Assembly: GCA_024640085.1 (NCBI GenBank)
Contig: JAHEFR010000002.1
Location: 62,001 to 126,000 of the forward strand
DNA: 64,000 bases
Origin: Gammaproteobacteria bacterium
GTDB taxonomy: Bacteria > Pseudomonadota > Gammaproteobacteria > Steroidobacterales > XN24
Reading direction: 5' to 3'
In this document: positions 9,420 to 20,607 of the stretch, one piece after another
Layout: each line of letters opens with the position of its first letter
How positions within the stretch are numbered: position 1 is the stretch's first letter
Notes under the pieces: model-generated
What the model saw: only the letters and a program-made list of their open reading frames with translations
Databases searched by the model: none
Told to the model about the DNA's origin: nothing
Program-made: the position numbers and the translations under genes

Positions 9420-9992
9420 TCAATCGAGGAACGATTTGCTCTTGCGTTTCCAGGGTAACCAGCTGCGGCTTTCCTTGCGTTCCACATCCGCTTTCTTGCG
9501 TTTCTCCGCAAGCCAGTCGAGCCGCGTAACAGGCCGTTGGTCACCGGCCGCCGCCCGTTTCTGGACCTCGACCTCCCGGTAGCTGCAGAAATCCCGGAAC
9601 GACTTGATTTCGCCGGACAGCTCCCGGACCACCAGGTCGACCATGACAGCGTCGTCCAGATAGCCGAGACCCGGGACGTCGTCCGGGATCAGGTCATTGG
9701 CATTGGCGAAGTACGCCAGGGCGTTGATCACCCTAGAGACATCCTCCGGGGGCAACTGCCAGTCGGTATCCTCGACCATGTTCACCAGCTCCTCGAGCTT
9801 CCCCAGGCGGCCGATCACGAAGTTAGGCGCGCCGGCCTGCTGCGCCTTGACCAGCAGCTGCCGGCACGCAGTGATGATGTCCCCCTGGCGAAGCTCATCA
9901 CCCACCTCGGCGCGGCTGGCCCGGAAAATCTCGACAAGCTGCTTCAGGTCATGAGCGTCAAACTCGATGACGAGGCGTTCTTCCTTGGCCAT
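9420..9992 (-). CDS. DUF1232 (YkvA-like) domain protein
   Basis: 190 residues. The DUF1232 core lies at about residues 88-130: INALAYFANANDLIPDDVPG followed by LGYLDDAVMVDLV, matching the family pattern of a helix ending in DLIPD then GYLDD. The N-terminal 80 residues are helical and charged; the C terminus is strongly basic. The domain is usually membrane-associated and its function is unknown. The start ATG 9992 (MAKEERLVIEF) is preferred to a longer frame. It is 52 bases downstream of the second vWA gene on the same strand, so it may be the last gene of the kinase/motor block or an independent unit. Confidence 0.8.
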   Translation of the reverse strand: MAKEERLVIEFDAHDLKQLVEIFRASRAEVGDELRQGDIITACRQLLVKAQQAGAPNFVIGRLGKLEELVNMVEDTDWQLPPEDVSRVINALAYFANANDLIPDDVPGLGYLDDAVMVDLVVRELSGEIKSFRDFCSYREVEVQKRAAAGDQRPVTRLDWLAEKRKKADVERKESRSWLPWKRKSKSFLD

Positions 9993-10044: not shown

Positions 10045-11058
10045 TCAGCCGCGGAAGTCGCTGAGACCGACGAAGGTGCCGCCGTTACGGTAGCACAGCG
10101 CCCGCATGAGAGTGGCGAAGCGGACCCCGGTAGATTGCATGTTCTGCGGCTGGGTGAATACGTAGGGGAAACCGATGGCATGTATGCGCACACGGCGATT
10201 GCCGCTGGCGTCGGCCTGGTTGATGCCATCCACGGCCCGGATCACGGCCTCGATGCTCTTACCGGTAAACTCGTCGCCAAAGACGTACAGGCTGATCCTC
10301 TTGTCCGGGGCATAAAACGTCTGGATAGCCGTGGTAATGCCCTCGACGGGACTCGAGTTGCTGAACGGCCTCCAGCTGGCGAGCGAATTGATGATGCCGC
10401 GGCGACGGGCCGGCGTGTCCGGAATCCACTTGTTCCGATAGCGCGAGAACAGGTACGCCCCCATGTCGTTCATTACCTGGATGCCTTTTACCTCGGGATA
10501 GACATCCAGCACCTCCTCGACCTTCCGCAGCAACAACGGCCAGCTGTAGTTCTGCATGCTGCCGGAGGTATCGATGATGAAGATGATGTATTCGCTGTCT
10601 ACGGGAATCCCGGCCACTGCCTCCTGTTCCAGGGATTGCCGACGGACGTCCCCCTGCAGCCGCTTCATCTCCTCGGTCAAGCGCTGCCGCGCGCGGGCGA
10701 GTTGTCCTTCGATGGTGCTCGACACGGAAGCGTCCTGGTCGGTTGCGGAATACTCGCCCCGGATCCTCGATAGCTCCCCCTGGAGTCGGGCCACCCTCTT
10801 CTCTTCATCTGAAAGCTGTTCCTTTCGGGACACCAGTTCCTGGTTCACGATCCTGGTCTCGCCGCGGATCTCCTCGAGTTCCTCCTCCAGGGAGAGGATG
10901 ATGGCCTCCAGGCTCTCGGTAGTCTGTTCGAGCAGCACCGGCTCGGCGAACTTCGTCAGTACCAGCAGCAGGATGACGCCGCCGAAGCCGCAGCATATGA
11001 CGTCAAGGAACGACAGTCCGGTGAGCTCGATCTCCCTGCGCCGTTCCCGTTTTCTCAT
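10045..11058 (-). CDS. Membrane-anchored coiled-coil vWA protein, ExbD-like helix (copy 2)
   Basis: 337 residues. A basic N terminus is followed by one membrane helix (about residues 15-37, LSFLDVICCGFGGVILLLVL), a long coiled coil (about 44-148) and a von Willebrand factor A domain. The vWA MIDAS motif DTSGSM starts at residue 163, so metal-dependent binding is likely retained. The FLDV segment at the head of the helix resembles the FIDVM segment of ExbD/TolR, whose Asp carries protons; here it is Asp19. The large domain should be periplasmic. ATG 11058 overlaps the stop of the preceding vWA gene (ATGA), indicating translational coupling. No exact family name is recognised. Confidence 0.85.
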   Translation of the reverse strand: MRKRERRREIELTGLSFLDVICCGFGGVILLLVLTKFAEPVLLEQTTESLEAIILSLEEELEEIRGETRIVNQELVSRKEQLSDEEKRVARLQGELSRIRGEYSATDQDASVSSTIEGQLARARQRLTEEMKRLQGDVRRQSLEQEAVAGIPVDSEYIIFIIDTSGSMQNYSWPLLLRKVEEVLDVYPEVKGIQVMNDMGAYLFSRYRNKWIPDTPARRRGIINSLASWRPFSNSSPVEGITTAIQTFYAPDKRISLYVFGDEFTGKSIEAVIRAVDGINQADASGNRRVRIHAIGFPYVFTQPQNMQSTGVRFATLMRALCYRNGGTFVGLSDFRG

Positions 11059-12146
11059 GGCCAGTCCCTCGCCGGGCTGATGAACGAGCCCTGCGTCGCC
11101 TGGGCCAGCCGCCAGAACTCGGTGGCCGCCTGGGCATCACCCTCGATGGGCATCAGTACCACGTTGACCGGGATACCGGCAGGCAGTTCCTCCAGGGCGT
11201 TGCCGAAATGGCGCAACCTGGCGCGGCCGCTGACCGTCTGACCACGCGGTGGATCCTTGCCCTGGGTCGGCAGGCCGTCGGTGATCAGGAATATGTTGTC
11301 CGGGCGCGGAGTAAGGGACTTCACCGCGGTAAAGGCGTTGTACAGGCTGGTCCCCCCGCCGGGCACGAGATGGTGGGAACCCCTGATGGCCGCGTCGACG
11401 ACGTCCGGTTTCTCTGCCTCCAGCCACTGCCCCCCGGAGTCAGCCACCACCGGTGAGGCCGTTTCCGAAAAGGCGATGATCTGGAACCGGGTCTGGGGCG
11501 AGAGCTGGGCGACGAGCCACTCCACCGTGCGCAGGGCACGTTGCCATTTCGGCGACCGGATCTTCTGGGCGTCGTCCATGTTGCGGCGGCGGATGATGTT
11601 GACGATGGTCTCGTCGAGCATGCTGGCCGATGCGTCCAGCAACACCAGAACGCGCTGCCCGCCTACCTTGACGCCGGTCAGGTACTGCCGGTCTCCGTCG
11701 CCCTGGATCCTGCGCAGCCTGTCCCCCTGGTCATCGGGCTGGCTGCTGGCCGCGGACAGACGCTTGGCGTCCTCCTCCATGGCCTTGAGATCCGCCTTGA
11801 GCTTGTTGATGTGTTCCTGTCGGGCCAGCGTGTCCGCCTCCATCTCCGATAGCTCGACCTTCTTGTCCTCCATCAGTTCGATAATGCGCCGGGCGAGGCC
11901 GCGGGCCTCCACAGTCTTGCGTTCCGTCTCCTCCATGGTGTTGCGGAGTTCCACCAGGTTCTTCTCGCCTTCGGACGTCTCCACCTTCAGCCGATCCGCC
12001 CGCTCGCTGAGATTCTTGTTCAGCTCCTCCGAACGCATGGACACAGTGGCATTGATGATCATGAAGAACAGGACGACCGCACCGAACCCGCAACTCATGA
12101 TGTCGAGGAAGGAAAGGCTGAAGGTATCGATGCGACGCCGGGCCAT
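11055..12146 (-). CDS. Membrane-anchored coiled-coil vWA protein, ExbD-like helix (copy 1)
   Basis: 363 residues. Layout parallels the next gene: basic N terminus, a membrane helix (about 11-33, LSFLDIMSCGFGAVVLFFMI) with Asp15 in the FLDI motif, a coiled coil (about 38-135) and a vWA domain (about 165-350). MIDAS residues are visible as DASAS (171-175), a Thr in GGGTS (near 266) and Asp in LITDG (290). The two vWA proteins share architecture and the LSFLD...CGFG helix motif but are otherwise divergent, suggesting an old duplication with specialisation. The start ATG lies one base after the FHA gene's stop; a longer frame overlapping that gene is rejected. The vWA domain probably binds a protein partner in the periplasm. 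Confidence 0.86.
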   Translation of the reverse strand: MARRRIDTFSLSFLDIMSCGFGAVVLFFMIINATVSMRSEELNKNLSERADRLKVETSEGEKNLVELRNTMEETERKTVEARGLARRIIELMEDKKVELSEMEADTLARQEHINKLKADLKAMEEDAKRLSAASSQPDDQGDRLRRIQGDGDRQYLTGVKVGGQRVLVLLDASASMLDETIVNIIRRRNMDDAQKIRSPKWQRALRTVEWLVAQLSPQTRFQIIAFSETASPVVADSGGQWLEAEKPDVVDAAIRGSHHLVPGGGTSLYNAFTAVKSLTPRPDNIFLITDGLPTQGKDPPRGQTVSGRARLRHFGNALEELPAGIPVNVVLMPIEGDAQAATEFWRLAQATQGSFISPARDWP

Positions 12147-12147
12147 G

Positions 12148-13500
12148 TCAGTCCCTCGCAGCGACCAGCAGCATGCGACTGCCCGGGGTGCCGATCCGCA
12201 GCACGTCGCCCGCCCGCAATTCCGCTGTCCCCTCGACCCGGCGATCGTTGATCCAGGTCCCGTATCGACTGGCATCCTCGACCAGGACGGCATCCGCCTT
12301 CCGTAACACCCGGCAGTGGCTGCGGGAAACGCCCTCTGTCTGGTCGCGGACGATGACCGGACGATGGTCGGCCGAGGGGGCGGTGCCGATCTCAAGCGGT
12401 ATTTCGGCGATCTTCCAGGCGACGCTGCCCTGGAGAAGGTGTGTCGGCGGCGGCCGGCCGTCGGTTCCTGACGTTGCCGGGGGCGCCGTCGTCTGGCCGG
12501 ACCCGCCGACGCGAGGCAGTGCCGTCACGAACCGCACCGACCCGTCCTCCGAGAGGATGTGCTCGCTGCGGCTGGCAGCCCCGCGGAGAGCTGCCTCGGG
12601 CTCCAGTGGCTGAACGTCGACACCGGTCTCGAGCAAGCCCTTGCCAAACCCGGGCAGGGCGGCAACTCGATGACTCAGGAGGACTGCCTCCAGTCCGCGG
12701 GCGGCGCGGATGCTCTCAATCATCCGCAGGATTCTCTCGTAATGAGGCTCCACGGCACGGACCAGCTGGGTCCGTGACACGGAGGCGGTCAGGCGCCGCC
12801 CGTCCGCCTCGATCTCCATCTCGATCTCGCGATCCTCGCCCAGCGCACGGATCCATTGCCAGAGACGTTCGAACAGTATCTGTTCAGTGGCGGCCGTGTG
12901 GAGCGGGTCGAATCGGGTCTGGCTGACGAACGCCTCCGCGATCGTCGACAACCATGCCTGCTCGAGGCTCGCCAGACCGGAGCCCTCGGCAAACTGGACC
13001 TCTCCGCGCCGGAATGCGTCGGCGGCGGCGATCTCCGTAAGTACGCCAACGTGAAGATGCATGTCCACATGGAGCAGGCTGTGCCGCTCCGAGTGCGCGC
13101 TGGCCGCCACCGCCACGTCGACCAGACCCCTCACCGGGAGACCGGCCTCACCGGCCACCCCGAGAAGCACCCCGAGGGACTCCCGGCCAAAATATCCCGG
13201 TACCGCGAGGATGACGGGATCATCGTCGTCCCTGTGGAGCTCCTCACGGATCCCGGCGAGCTGGACACATGCCAGGTCCGCGGGCGCCGGCCCGCCAGGA
13301 CTCGTGGCACCGGCAGCAAGATCCCGCCAGAACCGGTTGGTGACTTCCCGGGGCCGCAGCCGCGACTGCCCGAGGGCCGCATCTCCGATCAGGATTCGGC
13401 CGGTCTCGACCAGCGCGTAGCCGGCGCCGACTTCGCTGCACTCGTCGACATTGCCGGCCAGGAAACCGCTGTCGTTGATCTCGATGACAAGCACGCTCAC
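12148..13500 (-). CDS. Actin/Hsp70-like protein with C-terminal FHA domain
   Basis: 450 residues, GTG start. The N-terminal 320 residues have a weak actin-like ATPase look (MSVLVIEINDSGFLAGN start, DPVILAVPGYFGRESLGVLL, LHVDMHLHVGVLTEI, AVLLSHRVAALPGFG), in the order expected of phosphate- and nucleotide-binding loops. The C terminus is a clear FHA domain (about residues 365-447) with VSRSHCRVLRK and YGTWINDRRV, the usual Ser/His and Asn positions for phosphothreonine recognition. With a Ser/Thr kinase in the same block, it probably reads kinase-dependent phosphorylation in the cytoplasm. It lies 19 bases downstream of the ExbB-like gene and 1 base upstream of the first vWA gene. The ATPase assignment is tentative; the FHA assignment is strong. 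Confidence 0.8.
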   Translation of the reverse strand: MSVLVIEINDSGFLAGNVDECSEVGAGYALVETGRILIGDAALGQSRLRPREVTNRFWRDLAAGATSPGGPAPADLACVQLAGIREELHRDDDDPVILAVPGYFGRESLGVLLGVAGEAGLPVRGLVDVAVAASAHSERHSLLHVDMHLHVGVLTEIAAADAFRRGEVQFAEGSGLASLEQAWLSTIAEAFVSQTRFDPLHTAATEQILFERLWQWIRALGEDREIEMEIEADGRRLTASVSRTQLVRAVEPHYERILRMIESIRAARGLEAVLLSHRVAALPGFGKGLLETGVDVQPLEPEAALRGAASRSEHILSEDGSVRFVTALPRVGGSGQTTAPPATSGTDGRPPPTHLLQGSVAWKIAEIPLEIGTAPSADHRPVIVRDQTEGVSRSHCRVLRKADAVLVEDASRYGTWINDRRVEGTAELRAGDVLRIGTPGSRMLLVAARD

Positions 13501-13519: not shown

Positions 13520-14317
13520 CTACCGTACCTTCATGTGGCGGATCAGCCGCCGATCGCAATAGGTCTTGGATTCGAGCACCAGTCGCTCCTGGAGAAGCTG
13601 AAGCTGGTGGACCGCGAACATCAGCACGATCGACAGGAGCAATGCAATGAAGGTGGAGTTGAACGCCACGCCCAGGGACTGGGTCACGCCGGCGATGTCA
13701 CCCTCCACGGCCTTGTGCGCCTGGGCCAGAGCAGCGCCGATGCCCCGCACCGTGCCGATAAACCCGATAGAAGGAATCGCCCAGGCGATGTAGCGGATCA
13801 TCGCAAGTTCCGAATCGAGCCGGTCGGCCTCCGCGTCGCATTCCTCGAAGGCCGCCTGGGACACATCCTGCACGTTCCTGGTGGAGTCGAATCGGTGCAG
13901 CGCCGTCAGCAGGGCCCGGGGCAGGAGATACTCCTGGACCTGGGCGGGCAGCGCCTGGATCTGGCGCGCGTATTCCCGAGTGTCCTCCGGCAGAATTTTC
14001 ATGCCCTCGGCGACGGGCACCAGGTCCTGCTGCAACAACGAACGCTGTCGAAACGCGCCCCAGCCCTTGTAGCTCATGATGGTGAGGGCCCAGAAGAACA
14101 GGATGAAGCAGGACTCCTGCTCGAAATCCCTGATAATCACGTAGACGGACCGCTCAGAGACGTAGTCGGGATCCTCGCGCATCTCGATCTGCTCCCGCCG
14201 GAGTTCCTCGTCGGCGTTGGGTCTCACCACTGAGACATAGAACCCGTGTACGAGGATGATCACGACGATCAGCGAGAACACCTGGTAGATGAACTCGATT
14301 GGGATGTTCTTTCTCAT
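13520..14317 (-). CDS. MotA/TolQ/ExbB-type proton channel protein
   Basis: 265 residues with predicted membrane helices near 9-30, 67-83, 176-198 and 215-238. The family core is AIPSIGFIGTVRGIGAAL, matching the GLLGTVxGM motif, followed by LGVAFNSTFIALLLSIVLMF with the Thr of the last pore helix. TolQ, ExbB and MotA form pentamers around a dimer of an Asp-bearing partner helix and convert proton-motive force to mechanical work. No separate TolR/ExbD/MotB gene follows; the two vWA proteins downstream supply candidate partner helices. The first helix and a long cytoplasmic insertion (about 85-170) differ from ordinary ExbB. Spacing to neighbours is under 20 bases. Confidence 0.87.
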   Translation of the reverse strand: MRKNIPIEFIYQVFSLIVVIILVHGFYVSVVRPNADEELRREQIEMREDPDYVSERSVYVIIRDFEQESCFILFFWALTIMSYKGWGAFRQRSLLQQDLVPVAEGMKILPEDTREYARQIQALPAQVQEYLLPRALLTALHRFDSTRNVQDVSQAAFEECDAEADRLDSELAMIRYIAWAIPSIGFIGTVRGIGAALAQAHKAVEGDIAGVTQSLGVAFNSTFIALLLSIVLMFAVHQLQLLQERLVLESKTYCDRRLIRHMKVR

Positions 14318-14335: not shown

Positions 14336-14584
14336 TCAGATATCGGAGGGAAATGCGATTGACGAGTCCGCCGAGATGGACTCCGACGGTATGAATACGT
14401 CGTCCCTGGTCTCCTGGGTCTCGTCCCAGACGTCGATCTCCGGCAGAGCCTCCTCGGCCGTTTCTTTGTTCCCGGGTGCGTTTTCCTCCGCTCCCTGGTC
14501 CTGGGCGGGCTGCGCCTCCTGGGCGGACACACCCGCCGAGGCCACAAGGGCCGTCAGCAGGGCTGCGAGTAGCATCCTGTTCAT
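14336..14584 (-). CDS. Small acidic exported protein
   Basis: 82 residues. Start ATG 14584 has GGAG about 8 bases upstream. Residues 1-22 (MNRMLLAALLTALVASAGVSAQ) are a signal peptide. The mature 60 residues are very acidic and probably disordered (EAQPAQDQGAEENAPGNKE, then LPEIDVWDETQETRDDVFIP), with no cysteine. It sits 34 bases after the SUMF1/PEGA gene and 18 bases before the ExbB-like gene, so it is inside the block and probably a periplasmic component. I recognise no family. Confidence 0.7.
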   Translation of the reverse strand: MNRMLLAALLTALVASAGVSAQEAQPAQDQGAEENAPGNKETAEEALPEIDVWDETQETRDDVFIPSESISADSSIAFPSDI

Positions 14585-14618: not shown

Positions 14619-17060
14619 TCAGTTGATACTACGCGCAATCCGGAATCCCAAGTCCGGCCGCGCTTCGTCCGCCGAATCCCGCCATGTCCACCTGAGTTCG
14701 CTGATACTGCCTTGCCGCCAGCTCGAGCCGCGGATGACGTAGTATCGCCCCTCTTCGGCTCCGATCGGGTCCATCGCGACAGGCTCGTTGACCCCGGTAT
14801 ATGTCCGGTACAAGTCGTTGGTCCACTCCGAGACATTTCCCGCCGCGTCGAGCAGCCCCAGCGGACTGGGCCGGAAACGGCCGACCGGAGCGGTAACCGG
14901 GTAGTCGTCGTTGTAGCTCATCAGCACCTGCTGGAGTCCGGCGCGGGCGGACATGTCCGCAAAATTGCCGGAGCCCGGGGTTGGCGGCATGGCATCGCCC
15001 CAGGGGTATCGCTGCGGTGGCCTGTCCCTGCCGGCATAACGGGCCGCCCACGCCCATTCTGCCTCGGTCGGCAGGCGGTAGCCGTTGGTGGGTGGCCAGA
15101 TAGGCACGAGGCGTCCCGAATCTGTCTTGTAGGCGGCCTTGAGAGAATCCTGGTTACTGAGCCAGTTGCAGAACGCGGCTGCATCCTGCCAGTTTACGCG
15201 TACGGCGGGGTAGTCATCGCCATCCAACCCGTAGCCGATGGCTGTGCCCGAAGTGTGCCCGCCGCGGAACTCCCGGAACTCCCGGTTGGTAATCTCCCGC
15301 ACCCCGATATAGAACGGGTTGCTGATCTTGACTTCCCGCAGACCCTCGTTCGCCCGGCGCCCGGGCTCCCCGCGCGGCGACCCCAGGGTGAACTGGCCCC
15401 CGGGGACCAGGACCAGGGTCGATCCCAGGGCGGTGGTCACCGACTTCGGAATGGCGGCTAGGGCGGCCTCTTCCTGCGTCAACAGCCTGATCTCCAGCCG
15501 CTGGGGGATACCGGGGGTCGGCTTGACCGTGACGGTCTGGGTCACGTATCCGGCCTTGCGAAATTCCAGGCGGTGCGGAATGGCGACAAGCTCAAGCTGC
15601 GCCGGGGCGGCGCCCCTGGACTCGCCATCGAGGACGAGTTCCACTCCGTCCGGCGCCACCTGCAGGTTGACCTCCCCGGTCACCGCCTCGAGCCGGAAGC
15701 TCTCCGTGCGCGTCTGGCCGGATCGCAGACGGATCGAACCGGTCGCCGGCTTATAGCCGGCCTGGCTCACCTCGACCCGGTAGCTGCGTCCCGGATCCAG
15801 TTCCAGCCGCAGCGGAGACCGGCCGCGATACTCGCCGTCCACGAGTACCGTGGCGCCCGAGGGCTGGCTCTTTACCACCAGCGTCCCATCGGACGGGCGC
15901 ATGCTCACTTCGGGGAGCACCAGCGGCGTGGCTGGCTCCACTTCCACGTTCTGGCGCCATGTCTTGAATCCGGCCTTGCGGATCTCTAGTTCGTGGCGGC
16001 CTGAGTCCAGTTCGAATTCCGCCGGCGTCGTCCCCTGTTCTTCGCCGTCCGCCAGCACCAGGGCGCCGGGCGGCGCGCTGGTTACGGTCACCGGCGCCCA
16101 GTCCGGGACCAGGGACAGCTCCCGCTCGAGAATCGATCCGCCCCCGTTGACGTCCAGATCCTCGGCGTACCCGACGTACCGGTCCGCGTCGACTTCCAGC
16201 CGGTAGCTTCCCGGCTTCACCGGATAATCCTCCAGGGGTGTCTCGCCGATCTCCTCGCCGTCGAGGGAAACGCGGGCGCCAGTCACGTCTCCGCTACTGA
16301 TGAACAGACGGTCCGGTAATCGCACCATGAAAAGCTGGATGGTCTGGGACCGGCTGTCGTCGACCTCGACCGTCTCCTCCAGGAGATCGTATTCCGGCAG
16401 GCTGGCCCGGACACGGTATTGCCCCGGTAGCAGCAGGTACCGGGGTCCGAAGCGGATCGCCAGACCGCCCTCTACCGACAAGGCTTCGGGCGCGGGGCTC
16501 ACCAGGATCGCGACCGACCTGGCGCTGAACATGAACCATGCCGATACCGCCAGGATCGCCACGGCGCCTGCAAGGACCGCGCCCCTGACCGGAAACGGCC
16601 GGCGCCGGGTCCCGTCCGTCTGCATTCCGACGCGCTGGAACTCCACCGGCTTGATCACGTCATCCGGGTCCGGCTCCGCCTCCGGCGCGCCGGGTTCCGT
16701 CATCGTCACCACGGGCGGCACTGTGACGTTGTCGGCGTCGTCCGGCTCCACGGAGACCTGCAGACCATCGGCCCCGACGGCGAAGGTCACGATGCAACCC
16801 GGGACCCGCAGTACTTCACCACCTTCGAGCCAGCGGGACTCGGTCAGCGGTGCCCCCCCGACCGTAGCGCCCTGGGGCGTGGCGCCCGGCTGCAAAAAGA
16901 ACTTTCCGCCTGAGAAGCCGAGGAATGCGACCGGCGCCGGGTTCCCCGTTCCGGGGAGCCGGATGGGGCTGTCGCCGCCGACGCCGATAGCGACGGGGAG
17001 TTGCTCCGGAGTGAAGTCACGCGCGCCGGCGGCGTCCCTGACCGCGATATGCAAGCTCAA
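14619..17060 (-). CDS. FHA-like / PEGA-repeat / formylglycine-enzyme-fold membrane protein
   Basis: About 813 residues. Domains in order: an FHA-like sheet (1-100), a Pro/Glu-rich linker, one membrane helix (about 158-180), four PEGA-type repeats (roughly 262-305, 330-375, 400-445 and 465-515, each with a VxxDGExxGxxP core), and a sulfatase-modifying-factor (FGE) domain (about 545-813). The FGE fold is seen in GYRLPTEAEWAWAAR, YPWGD, NVSEWTND and VIRGSSW. I find only one cysteine (in AAFCNWLSNQ) in the FGE domain, so the paired catalytic cysteines of true FGE seem absent and a binding role is more likely. I chose TTG 17060 because it overlaps the kinase stop (TTGA) with AGGAG 5 bases upstream; a GTG at 17075 is the alternative. 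Confidence 0.85.
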   Translation of the reverse strand: MSLHIAVRDAAGARDFTPEQLPVAIGVGGDSPIRLPGTGNPAPVAFLGFSGGKFFLQPGATPQGATVGGAPLTESRWLEGGEVLRVPGCIVTFAVGADGLQVSVEPDDADNVTVPPVVTMTEPGAPEAEPDPDDVIKPVEFQRVGMQTDGTRRRPFPVRGAVLAGAVAILAVSAWFMFSARSVAILVSPAPEALSVEGGLAIRFGPRYLLLPGQYRVRASLPEYDLLEETVEVDDSRSQTIQLFMVRLPDRLFISSGDVTGARVSLDGEEIGETPLEDYPVKPGSYRLEVDADRYVGYAEDLDVNGGGSILERELSLVPDWAPVTVTSAPPGALVLADGEEQGTTPAEFELDSGRHELEIRKAGFKTWRQNVEVEPATPLVLPEVSMRPSDGTLVVKSQPSGATVLVDGEYRGRSPLRLELDPGRSYRVEVSQAGYKPATGSIRLRSGQTRTESFRLEAVTGEVNLQVAPDGVELVLDGESRGAAPAQLELVAIPHRLEFRKAGYVTQTVTVKPTPGIPQRLEIRLLTQEEAALAAIPKSVTTALGSTLVLVPGGQFTLGSPRGEPGRRANEGLREVKISNPFYIGVREITNREFREFRGGHTSGTAIGYGLDGDDYPAVRVNWQDAAAFCNWLSNQDSLKAAYKTDSGRLVPIWPPTNGYRLPTEAEWAWAARYAGRDRPPQRYPWGDAMPPTPGSGNFADMSARAGLQQVLMSYNDDYPVTAPVGRFRPSPLGLLDAAGNVSEWTNDLYRTYTGVNEPVAMDPIGAEEGRYYVIRGSSWRQGSISELRWTWRDSADEARPDLGFRIARSIN

Positions 17061-19366
17061 ATCCGCTCCTCGCACCGGATGGTGTATGGCCCGGCGGGCT
17101 CGCCCGGGTGTACCGTGAATTGTTGCCGCACGTCGCGGAATCCCTTCCTCGTCCCGACGGCCGTATAGGTGCCCGGACGCAACTCGAGCTGGAACTGGTC
17201 GAAGGTTCCCAGGCGGCCAACCTGGTAGAGCACGACCTCGGTGAGATTATCCGACTGGAGGGTGACGCGCACCGGTCTGACGGCCTCGGTGAGCAGGTTT
17301 TCCACCCGCGATATCTGGCCCTGGAGCCGCGGCCCGGGCTGCTGGATCGTCGCCGCCTGTGCGAGGGCAGAGCGTGCCGCCTCCTGCACCTGCGCCGAGT
17401 ACATGCGCTCCGGATCGTCGATCAAACCCTGCAGGCGGGCATCGAGAGCGGCTCGCGCTCCGGCCCTCCGGCTCCCGGACTGAGCGAAGACGACTGCCCC
17501 GTCCTCGGCCAGGATCGATCGATAGACCGTCAACGCCTCCTGCCATTTCTCCGCGGCCTCCAGCGCCTGGGCGCGACTGCGTCCATCCGCGATTTCGGCG
17601 ACGCGCTTCTCTTCCCGGGCACGGGTGATGCCTTCCGCCGGTTCGGCGGCAGAGGGGCGAATGCGGGAGGCGGTCTCGAACGCCCGGATGGCGTCCTCAA
17701 AGTGCTTGTCGGCAAGTGACGCGTAGGCCTCGGACATTGCCGAAGTGTAGCGACGCTCCACCATCGCCGCCTGTACCCGCGGAATCGCCTCTGACGGGCC
17801 AGCGAATTCCGGATCGAGTTCCATCACTTCGCGATAACGCGCCAGCGCCGCGACGAGATCACCCTCCTGCTCCAGGCGAACCCCGTCCGAGTACGCAGCG
17901 AACACACGTTCGATGTTCTCGGCCCGCCCGAGACCGGCGGAGGCCACCGGGTTGCCGGGATCGAGGACCAGGGCCATCCCGAATTCGCGCTCGGCGGCGT
18001 CGCGTCGTCCCTCGCGGAGCGCTTCGGCACCACGCTCGAGGGAGAGACGCAATAACTCCCCGCCCTTTTCCCGCAGACCTTCCAGGGCGGAGACGGCGCG
18101 TTGCCAGGCATCGCCGGCCGATTCGTACCGTCCGGACGTCAGGGCCTCGCCTGCAGTCGCCGCGATCGCCTGGGCATCCCGGTAGTCGACACCGCCCCAA
18201 TCCTGGACCCCGCGGGCGAGAAGCTCCTCGTCCATGGCCTGGAACTGTCCGGCGGCCTCCTCGGCGCGGGCCTTGAGCTCGGCCGCTTTCTCCAGTTCGT
18301 TGTCCTCCGGCATCGCGCGCCGGGGAGCCTCGGTCACGGTTGCCGGTTGCTGTTGAGCCACGAAGTCCGGCAGGAAGAAGACGACCCCGACGAGCAGGAC
18401 AGCCAGCAGCGCGAACGCGGTCCATACCAGAATGGGCAGGCGACGGGTCGGCGGCCGGACAGCCACGGCCACCGGCGCAGCCGGACTGGTGTGCCTCGGA
18501 GCGGCCGGAGCGATCTCCTCGCTCTCCGCCCCCGCCGGGATCACCTCGACCTCGGGCGGCCGGGTCCGGTTCCTGAGATCCTCGAGCACAGCCCCCAGTT
18601 CCTTTCCGACGGTCTCCATGTCGGACGGTCGCGCCGCGGCGTCAGCCACCAGCAACCTGGCGACCAGCGCCTGAAGTCTCCGGGGCACCGCGTAATTCGT
18701 GCGCGAACGCAACGGCTGCGGAGGCGGACCGTCGATCTCCACGCTCGGAGGGAAGCCGGCGATCAGTTCATAGATCATGATGCCCAGGGCGAACGCATCG
18801 TCCGCGGGCGATGGTGGCAGGCCAGCGCGCTGCTGGGGACTCATCGACAGGGGAGACCCGCCGCCAGAAACCTTCAAGGCGCGTCCGCCATGAATGACGC
18901 CTGCGATGCCGAAATCCACCAGCCGGGGCATCCCCTCCCGGTCGATCAGTACGTTGGACGGCTTGACGTCCCGGTGGACGATGCCCATCGCGTGAGCGTA
19001 AGCCAGGGCGGACGTCAGCGGCAGAATCCTGGCCACGATGTCCGCGGGGCTGCCGTCACGCAACTGTCCCAGTTCGCCGCCCTCGACGAACTCCATGGAG
19101 ATGAAGGCAAGGCCCTCGGCATTGTGGACGTCATAGATGCGGACGATGTTCCGATGCACGAGGCGCCGGGCCTGGCGGCACTCCTGCCGCAGAAGCTCCA
19201 GCATGGCGGCGTCCGCCGCCAGCGACGGCTCCAGGATCTTGACGGCGACCTGATCCTGGAGTTCGCTGTCCGCGGCCAGCCAGACCTGGCCCATCCCGCC
19301 CCTGCCCAGCAACCGGCGGAGCTCGAATCGGGACGCGAGGATTCGGCCCGGTACCAGCTCCGTCAT
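17057..19366 (-). CDS. Transmembrane Ser/Thr protein kinase (PknB/Hanks type)
   Basis: 769 residues. The kinase domain (about 14-265) has GRGGMG (21-26), the catalytic Lys in VAVKI (Lys43), HRDVKPSNVL (131-140) and DFG (151-153), so it should be active. A Pro-rich linker is followed by a membrane helix (about 311-332) and a 430-residue extracytoplasmic region. That region is helical and repeat-like, with TPR-type pairs such as AREAEREFGMAL-like segments and the GDLVAALARYREVMELDPEF stretch, and ends in a small beta domain (LRPGTYTAVGTRKGFRDVRQ) resembling PEGA. ATG 19366 overlaps the stop of the upstream lipoprotein (ATGA). It is the probable regulator of the block, with the FHA proteins as likely readers. 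Confidence 0.93.
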   Translation of the reverse strand: MTELVPGRILASRFELRRLLGRGGMGQVWLAADSELQDQVAVKILEPSLAADAAMLELLRQECRQARRLVHRNIVRIYDVHNAEGLAFISMEFVEGGELGQLRDGSPADIVARILPLTSALAYAHAMGIVHRDVKPSNVLIDREGMPRLVDFGIAGVIHGGRALKVSGGGSPLSMSPQQRAGLPPSPADDAFALGIMIYELIAGFPPSVEIDGPPPQPLRSRTNYAVPRRLQALVARLLVADAAARPSDMETVGKELGAVLEDLRNRTRPPEVEVIPAGAESEEIAPAAPRHTSPAAPVAVAVRPPTRRLPILVWTAFALLAVLLVGVVFFLPDFVAQQQPATVTEAPRRAMPEDNELEKAAELKARAEEAAGQFQAMDEELLARGVQDWGGVDYRDAQAIAATAGEALTSGRYESAGDAWQRAVSALEGLREKGGELLRLSLERGAEALREGRRDAAEREFGMALVLDPGNPVASAGLGRAENIERVFAAYSDGVRLEQEGDLVAALARYREVMELDPEFAGPSEAIPRVQAAMVERRYTSAMSEAYASLADKHFEDAIRAFETASRIRPSAAEPAEGITRAREEKRVAEIADGRSRAQALEAAEKWQEALTVYRSILAEDGAVVFAQSGSRRAGARAALDARLQGLIDDPERMYSAQVQEAARSALAQAATIQQPGPRLQGQISRVENLLTEAVRPVRVTLQSDNLTEVVLYQVGRLGTFDQFQLELRPGTYTAVGTRKGFRDVRQQFTVHPGEPAGPYTIRCEERI

Positions 19367-20607
19367 TGAGCCGAAGCAGTCTCGTGGTCGGCCAGCTCGA
19401 TCACGTCCGTCTGCGGAGCCGCGACAGAGACCCCTGTCTCGGCTTCATAGATGTCCCGGAGGAGCTTCCGCCACTCGGCGTACTGGGTTGCCGCCGAACC
19501 CTCGAGACGGCGGGTCTCGCCCGCCACTTCCACGACCGCAGGCTGGATCTCCTGCCCGAAGGAGGTGCCGAGTTCCGCCAACACCTCGGCCTGCATCTTG
19601 GCTTCCTTGCCCACCTGGATGCCCTGCCGGAACAGCTCCAGGCCACCGATCAGCATGACGTCGCTGGCCGCCTGGGTGGTCCGGCTGTCCTGATCGATCA
19701 TCACGGACCCGACCACCGCCGCGGCCCCGATCAGCTTCCGCCAGCGCGCGGCCGCCTTGAGTTCCCTCAGCGCCAGCGCCTCGTCATAGCTGTACTTGCG
19801 CCAGCTGTCGTAAGGCGGCTCCATCTCCCGATAGAACGATGCGTAGTACTCGTTAAGCGTATCGACGAACAGCAGATCCCGGTCCCGTATCGCCTCCATT
19901 CGCGTCACCATTGGATCGCCCTCGGCTGGCAGCCTAACGATTTCGTAGTCTCCCCTGCGATCCTCCTCCAGGTATCCGCCGAATGTCGTCGGCGCCAGGT
20001 CCTCCGCGAACCGCAACTCAGCGACCTGCCGGACCTGGACAAGCGCGGGCGTATCCATGCTGTCGCGGACAGCGAGGAGGTCGTTGGCCACGTCATTGTA
20101 GACATTCTGGAACGGGTCCCGGTCGAGCAGCTCGCCATCGGAGTAGGTGCCCGAATCCGCCCGCGACTCATATTTGTTGTCGAGCCACTCGCGCCCTGTC
20201 GCATCCTCGGCCCGCACGCTGATCTCCAGCTCCTCGCCATCCGATTTCAGGATCTTGCCTTTGACGACGAGCTCCGAACCGGGCCGATCGGCGGGCACCA
20301 TCCGGACGGCGCCCCACTGGCCAGTCTGCTCCAGGGTCCGCTTCAGGTGGTAAGCGATATAGCGCGACTCGGCCTTGCGAACCTCGGGAGGGACGCCCAG
20401 CTTGTCCGTGGCAGCCTCCTCGGACTCGGGCAACCCCGGGTCGAATTCGACGATGGTCACGGTCAGCCGCTCTGCGGCCGGTATCTCGACCTGGGCGCTG
20501 GTCGCCGGCTTGTACTCGACCGGGCGGGTTTCGCTGACGACGCAACCGCCCAGCAGTATCGCCAGGGGCACGGCCATCAAGGACAGGCAGTCGGATCGAG
20601 TACGCAT
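19363..20607 (-). CDS. Putative lipoprotein of the kinase/motor block
   Basis: 414 residues. A lipobox is present: LAILLGGC with the lipidated Cys near residue 22. The mature part contains LTVTIVEFDPGLPESEE, a segment typical of outer-membrane-associated proteins that compute a shared envelope scaffold (compare CsgG/LpoB-like openings), then VVKGKILKSDGEELEISVRA, a mostly helical middle, and a glycine/alanine-rich stretch around KLIGAAAVVGSVMIDQDSRT. I cannot assign a family. It is 9 bases downstream of the Ser/Gln-rich lipoprotein gene and overlaps the kinase start, so the three are surely cotranslated. Location is probably the outer membrane inner leaflet, as residue +2 is Val rather than Asp. 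Confidence 0.78.
   Translation of the reverse strand: MRTRSDCLSLMAVPLAILLGGCVVSETRPVEYKPATSAQVEIPAAERLTVTIVEFDPGLPESEEAATDKLGVPPEVRKAESRYIAYHLKRTLEQTGQWGAVRMVPADRPGSELVVKGKILKSDGEELEISVRAEDATGREWLDNKYESRADSGTYSDGELLDRDPFQNVYNDVANDLLAVRDSMDTPALVQVRQVAELRFAEDLAPTTFGGYLEEDRRGDYEIVRLPAEGDPMVTRMEAIRDRDLLFVDTLNEYYASFYREMEPPYDSWRKYSYDEALALRELKAAARWRKLIGAAAVVGSVMIDQDSRTTQAASDVMLIGGLELFRQGIQVGKEAKMQAEVLAELGTSFGQEIQPAVVEVAGETRRLEGSAATQYAEWRKLLRDIYEAETGVSVAAPQTDVIELADHETASAQ

Follow-up and report, generated by a model that had tools for sequence, protein, structure and literature searches.

The two vWA proteins encoded side by side in the window, that is, in the whole stretch of 64,000 nucleotides that we analyzed, are very probably the rotor ("axle") subunits of a pmf-driven 5:2 motor of the MotAB/ExbBD/TolQR type, whose ring is made of the product of a neighboring gene, P0003. 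These proteins, hereafter vWA1 and vWA2, fit the slot of ExbD/TolR because ExbD is absent, the ring keeps two pore threonines, and the vWA pairing is near-invariant. The genes concerned are the following, starting with the first gene of the conserved block:

19363..20607, minus strand: probable lipoprotein of 414 aa, with an LLGGC lipobox recognized by eye; first gene of the conserved block
17057..19366, minus strand: Ser/Thr protein kinase (HRDVKPSN and DFG motifs), with a transmembrane (TM) segment at 312–330 and a TPR region beyond it
14619..17075, minus strand: membrane protein of 818 aa, with a TM segment at 165–183, four PEGA repeats, and an FGE-sulfatase/GldK-like domain
14336..14584, minus strand: small secreted acidic protein of 82 aa with a signal peptide, detected in several relatives only
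13520..14317, minus strand: P0003, ring subunit of the ExbB/TolQ/MotA family, 265 aa, with the invariant residues T189 (GTV) and T222 (NST)
12148..13500, minus strand: protein of 450 aa with a C-terminal FHA domain and no TM segment; in most loci its gene separates exbB from vWA1
11055..12146, minus strand: vWA1 (P0002), 363 aa; basic N-terminus, TM helix 13–31 with Asp15 and Cys19, predicted helix 21–133, vWA domain at about 165–360 with DxSxS at 171–175
10045..11058, minus strand: vWA2 (P0001), 337 aa; basic N-terminus, TM helix 17–35 with Asp19 and Cys23, then a coiled coil, followed by the vWA domain (DxSxS at 163–167)
9420..9974, minus strand: DUF1232-containing protein, located after vWA2 in 5 of 120 loci, all from close relatives

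The N-terminus of vWA1 reads MARRRIDTFSLSFLDIMSCGFGAVVLFFMII, with Asp15, and that of vWA2 reads MRKRERRREIELTGLSFLDVICCGFGGVILLLVL, with Asp19. Both contain the helix motif LSFLD[I/V]xxCGFG, and each protein has one hydrophobic segment (residues 13–31 and 17–35, respectively), at the start of which the Asp is located. According to the positive-inside rule, the basic segment would place the N-terminus inside. In Pfam, the vWA domain of vWA1 was matched significantly (PF13519, E-value 2.9e-7) and that of vWA2 below the threshold (E-value 0.016), and the same family was matched by 44 of 45 vWA1 and 38 of 41 vWA2 homologues at E-values of up to 10. The DxSxS metal-site motif is intact in both proteins and invariant, or nearly so, among their homologues. 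In the AlphaFold2 model of vWA1 (mean pLDDT 83.7), a single helix spanning residues 21–133 precedes a confident vWA fold; these 113 residues would measure about 17 nm in a straight helix, and the helix as modeled may be long enough to span much of the periplasm. Because residues 1–18 have a pLDDT below 50, Asp15 and the start of the helix are unreliably placed in this model. The N-terminal helices of vWA1 and vWA2 matched nothing in Pfam, NCBIfam, PHROGs, or PADLOC, generic coiled-coil matches being disregarded, and a tblastn search of plasmids with vWA1 gave no match. Searches of PDB sequences with the vWA profiles returned mostly coiled coils. Matches to the T3SS needle and to LmuB/JetC were dismissed as coiled-coil noise.

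The helix Asp is invariant in all N-terminally complete homologues (54/54 for vWA1 and 56/56 for vWA2), which came from 59 genomes at the order level and 369 at the class level. A set of 120 longer loci was assembled from genome profile searches (40 loci) and from the species-collection matches listed (80 loci), some records being one genome entered twice. In this set, the Asp pattern fits 229 chains and, by eye, one more (L078); contig ends truncate the four chains that remain unmatched. The apparent lack of Asp15 from some chains of one alignment (A2) is regarded as an artifact of ATG-only starts. Re-reading of the ORFs bore out the coordinates, strand, motif, and Asp15/Asp19 numbering given in the initial annotation, which had also staked its reading on the conservation of this Asp; the residue is retained in the 54 and 56 homologues and in all complete chains of the 120 loci. 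The Cys found four residues after the Asp, which is followed by Gly-x-Gly-Ala, is invariant in vWA1 and present in 55 of 56 vWA2 sequences; as conserved as the Asp in both proteins, it would share the same helix face. In a remote relative, L087, the helix reads SALDLFASAMGAF, with the Cys and the first Gly lost and the Asp kept. This locus (L087:7516-10816 in genome G147, minus strand) apparently encodes a single vWA protein together with an ExbB-like gene, and its neighbors are FHA-like proteins, a protease-FHA-like fusion, and what looks by eye like a PP2C-like phosphatase; it may be a relative of the vWA motor that is homodimeric and linked to a phosphatase.

The initial annotation had likened the N-terminal helix to that of ExbD/TolR. 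In every comparison of helix profiles with ExbD and MotB (HHalign), Asp aligned on Asp, but the probabilities were low, ranging from 5 to 50% for ExbD N-termini and from 6 to 16% for MotB. The observed scores were reached by 0–11 of 200 column-permuted controls and thus exceeded 189–200 of them. The vWA1 and vWA2 helices matched each other in register with a probability of over 99%. At the Pfam level, PF02472 and PF13677 were unmatched by the vWA proteins of the window, and PF02472 was also missing from the family listings of 86 vWA homologues. In the vWA proteins, the coiled coil and the vWA domain take the place of a periplasmic ExbD domain, which was not found, and neither the MotB plug model nor an OmpA-like domain was matched. 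The helix has a signature of its own, DxxxCGxGA, which is unseen in the ExbD and MotB sets compared. Because of the low profile probabilities, the vWA helix is best described as compatible with those of ExbD and MotB, short of demonstrated homology.

The assignment of P0003 to the ring family is supported by a match to PF01618 (E-value 5.2e-15; 55.8 bits for a cut-off of 22.9) and by its AlphaFold2 model (pLDDT 90.5), for which 49 of the best 50 PDB matches were ExbB, TolQ, MotA, or ZorA, the best E-value being a modest 1.6e-3. In a profile of 37 homologues, T189 and T222 align with the threonines of the TolQ motifs GTV and ALIAT, respectively, and both are invariant, as is N220, two residues before T222. 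The position of the pore Glu of Escherichia coli TolQ, in the last helix, is mostly occupied by Val or Ile in P0003-type rings. This Glu is not universal, because the other ExbB genes of the same genome encode Glu, Gln, or Lys at this position.

The ring and vWA genes are distributed together. Among 59 genomes of the order, exbB and vWA2 are both found in 50 and both missing from 8, from which vWA1 is also absent; the one discordant genome (G054) is 85% complete, and 68 bases separate a contig end from the start of its vWA2. With 50 genomes having both genes, 8 having neither, and a single discordance at a contig edge, the association between exbB and vWA is beyond chance. Of the 120 loci, 99 contain exbB, and 18 of the 21 lacking it are cut by contig ends, as judged from the position of the match and the length of the contig; the other three correspond to G269, in which exbB lies on another contig, and to two isolated vWA2 genes of G030 that have relocated. 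The link is kept despite relocation, since vWA2 lies on a separate contig from exbB in G017, G030, G042, and G053. The two relocated copies of G030 are L086 and L107, and in all four genomes vWA1 stays beside exbB. Each of the genomes G014 and G027 contains a second ring gene and a second vWA pair; their second, divergent block copies (L084 and L085, respectively) are arranged as lipoprotein-kinase-FGE-ExbB-vWA1-vWA2, are about 30% identical, and have their own ring gene.

These distributions bear on whether the two vWA proteins work together. Known ExbD, TolR, and MotB rotors are homodimers, and this precedent would favor a variant of the motor explanation in which vWA1 and vWA2 each homodimerize, giving two alternative motors with one ring type. 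The two vWA2 copies of G030, away from vWA1, and the apparently single vWA gene of L087 point the same way, and the latter makes homodimers probable in the wider family. However, vWA1 and vWA2 are almost always found side by side in the set (in 115 and 119 of the 120 loci, respectively), each pair has a single ring gene, their helices match in register, and their ORFs overlap by 4 bases, which suggests coupled translation. We therefore regard separate homodimers as rather unlikely for the present proteins.

The initial annotation had noted an ExbB-like gene in the block and no separate ExbD, and had cast the vWA proteins as the missing motor partners. The ExbB-like gene was confirmed in the window, and the absence of ExbD held there and throughout the 120 loci, in which no ExbD-like ORF was detected with an HMM of our own, built from 45 ExbD proteins of the examined genomes; the role as motor partners is supported by the position of the helix, the invariant Asp, the basic N-terminus, and the co-occurrence with the ring gene. 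The genome of the window does contain eight ExbD matches elsewhere, as would suit an arrangement in which an unlinked ExbD fills the pore and the vWA proteins act as TonB/TolA-like force transducers on the exterior of the ring. Such side-binding is indeed attributed to a separate published vWA family, which partners with TolR and is marked by an SHLS motif (PMC12204202). Nevertheless, of the seven MotA_ExbB matches of this genome, the six besides P0003 each adjoin ExbD, and these six loci account for all eight ExbD matches; the MotB plug was unmatched in the same genome. Moreover, neither SHLS nor a conserved His is present in the vWA helix, according to the column composition of the 54 and 56 homologues, and an invariant Asp is found instead at its start. 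The TonB-like arrangement is thus very unlikely and was dropped, SHLS being absent. Two of the other ExbB loci of this genome, L004 (G000:C44, about 9–10.5 kb) and L005 (G000:C51, about 49–50 kb), comprise one ExbB and two ExbD genes each; one ExbD of each pair has Asn in place of the proton-carrying Asp (AFMNLM and TFLNLM) and the other keeps the Asp (LMDIF and LMDVF), which suggests heterodimeric rotors with one Asp.

The dominant gene order in the 120 loci is lipoprotein - Ser/Thr kinase - PEGA/FGE protein - ExbB - FHA protein - vWA1 - vWA2. It is found exactly in 57 loci and in shortened forms in many others, and the ExbB-vWA1-vWA2 core persists without a detected FHA protein. The DUF1232 protein is probably outside this core. 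The FHA protein keeps the SRSH and GTWIN motifs, and the region preceding its FHA domain looks, by eye, actin/Hsp70-like. The 414-aa probable lipoprotein had no family match in the libraries scanned, and the very acidic 82-aa protein sits between the FGE gene and exbB. That the vWA proteins are Bat-like membrane adhesins or chaperones, with a structural Asp and an operon merely shared with a motor, is hardly plausible. The vWA domain is indeed generic, BatB is among the top fold matches of the vWA1 model, and the helix is weakly similar to ExbD. However, no MoxR or DUF58 domain was found among the operon genes scanned, the vWA proteins strictly co-occur with one ring subfamily and no ExbD, and a structural role would be hard to square with an Asp that is invariant at the start of a TM helix over such divergence. 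Finally, a Zorya defense system was dropped, as ZorA models gave E-values of 0.009 or worse and ZorB had no match.

The ExbB-vWA1-vWA2 core is conserved across Gammaproteobacteria, including Parahaliea, Seongchinamella, Halioglobus, and Marinibactrum, and a scan of the species collection gave at least 569 confirmed stretches. Beyond this class, the core was also found in Desulfobacterota, Acidobacteria, Kiritimatiellia, and Myxococcota, and the named matches include Myxococcales and Phycisphaerales, although single taxon placements could be binning errors because many of the matches are metagenome bins.

If vWA1 and vWA2 are rotor subunits, their helices would insert as a heterodimer, one of each, into the lumen of a P0003 pentamer, where Asp15 and Asp19 would take up and release protons against the T189/T222 ring. 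The coiled coil may then transmit rotation or strain to the vWA domains, for which adhesion is a presumed role and which would use their metal sites to grip a partner, located most likely in the periplasm or at the outer membrane; the lipoprotein and the PEGA-FGE protein of the operon are candidates. The membrane kinase and the FHA protein may gate assembly or activity through phosphorylation. The fuller scheme, in which an obligately asymmetric two-vWA motor, switched by the kinase and the FHA protein, works as a trans-envelope machine on the PEGA-FGE protein and on an outer-membrane lipoprotein and occurs widely in uncultured Gammaproteobacteria as well as in several further phyla, is one that we can put forward only tentatively. 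Were the motor interpretation true, the 5:2 motors would include a branch with a metal-dependent binding domain at the end of the rotor, and a proton motor could directly pull or rotate envelope ligands without TonB, TolA, or peptidoglycan anchoring. The unlike rotor pair would also be a natural case in which to test whether both aspartates need to be equivalent, and the conserved cassette of kinase and FHA protein suggests that such motors are regulated.

Several known systems share features with this locus. The resemblance to GldK/L/M (type IX secretion and gliding), in which an FGE-fold protein is likewise encoded with a proton motor, is an analogy only: the rotor domains differ, and although GldK/PorK is the best NCBIfam model for the PEGA-FGE protein (14619–17075), its score of 112.5 bits is far below the cut-off of 350 bits. 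With the SHLS vWA force transducers, the present proteins share a membrane-tethered vWA domain encoded near a tolQ-like gene, but the former attach to the edge of the ring and are accompanied by TolR genes (PMC12204202), whereas the latter have the Asp and no SHLS. As in MotAB, an Asp-containing helix follows a short N-terminus (SYAD.. in MotB, SFLD.. in the vWA proteins) and is fused to an extracytoplasmic binding domain, but the plug and the OmpA domain of MotB are absent. ExbBD and TolQR are similar by their PF01618 ring with the GTV and xxT threonines and by a partner whose Asp lies at the start of the helix, after a short cytoplasmic N-terminus. They differ from the present system, in which two unlike partners lack the ExbD domain and have a long coiled coil, a vWA domain, and the DxxxCGxGA signature, the pore Glu is mostly replaced by Val, and the block contains no ExbD.

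The closest likeness is to the "TPH-vWA" family of Proteobacteria, described from an Idiomarina query (Mol Biol Evol 2025 msaf138; PMC12204202, section 8, Fig. 4c,d). TPH-vWA proteins have a TolR/ExbD-like transpore helix with a conserved Asp, which AF3 models place inside the Thr ring; they mostly form heterologous pairs, and their genes adjoin tolQ-like genes, with no tolR/exbD (PMC12204202). The proteins studied here are likewise single-pass vWA proteins with a helix Asp and no SHLS, encoded in pairs beside a tolQ-like gene and without tolR/exbD. The match is in these described features, and Idiomarina has no record among the 80 species-collection loci listed. Unlike in that description, kinase, FHA, PEGA-FGE, and lipoprotein genes are conserved at this locus; they go undescribed in the main text of the paper, where "kinase" is absent and the sole match to "FHA" is FhaC, and the signalling cassette therefore appears to be an addition to that work. 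No further description of the vWA-motor class was found in the literature covered, which included few subscription journals and preprints; in the literature found, no experimental test of the class was met with, and the class appears solely as a prediction with no known function. The idea of a vWA motor is thus already published, and to it this locus adds a conserved cassette, a phylogenetic profile, and the DxxxCGxGA signature.
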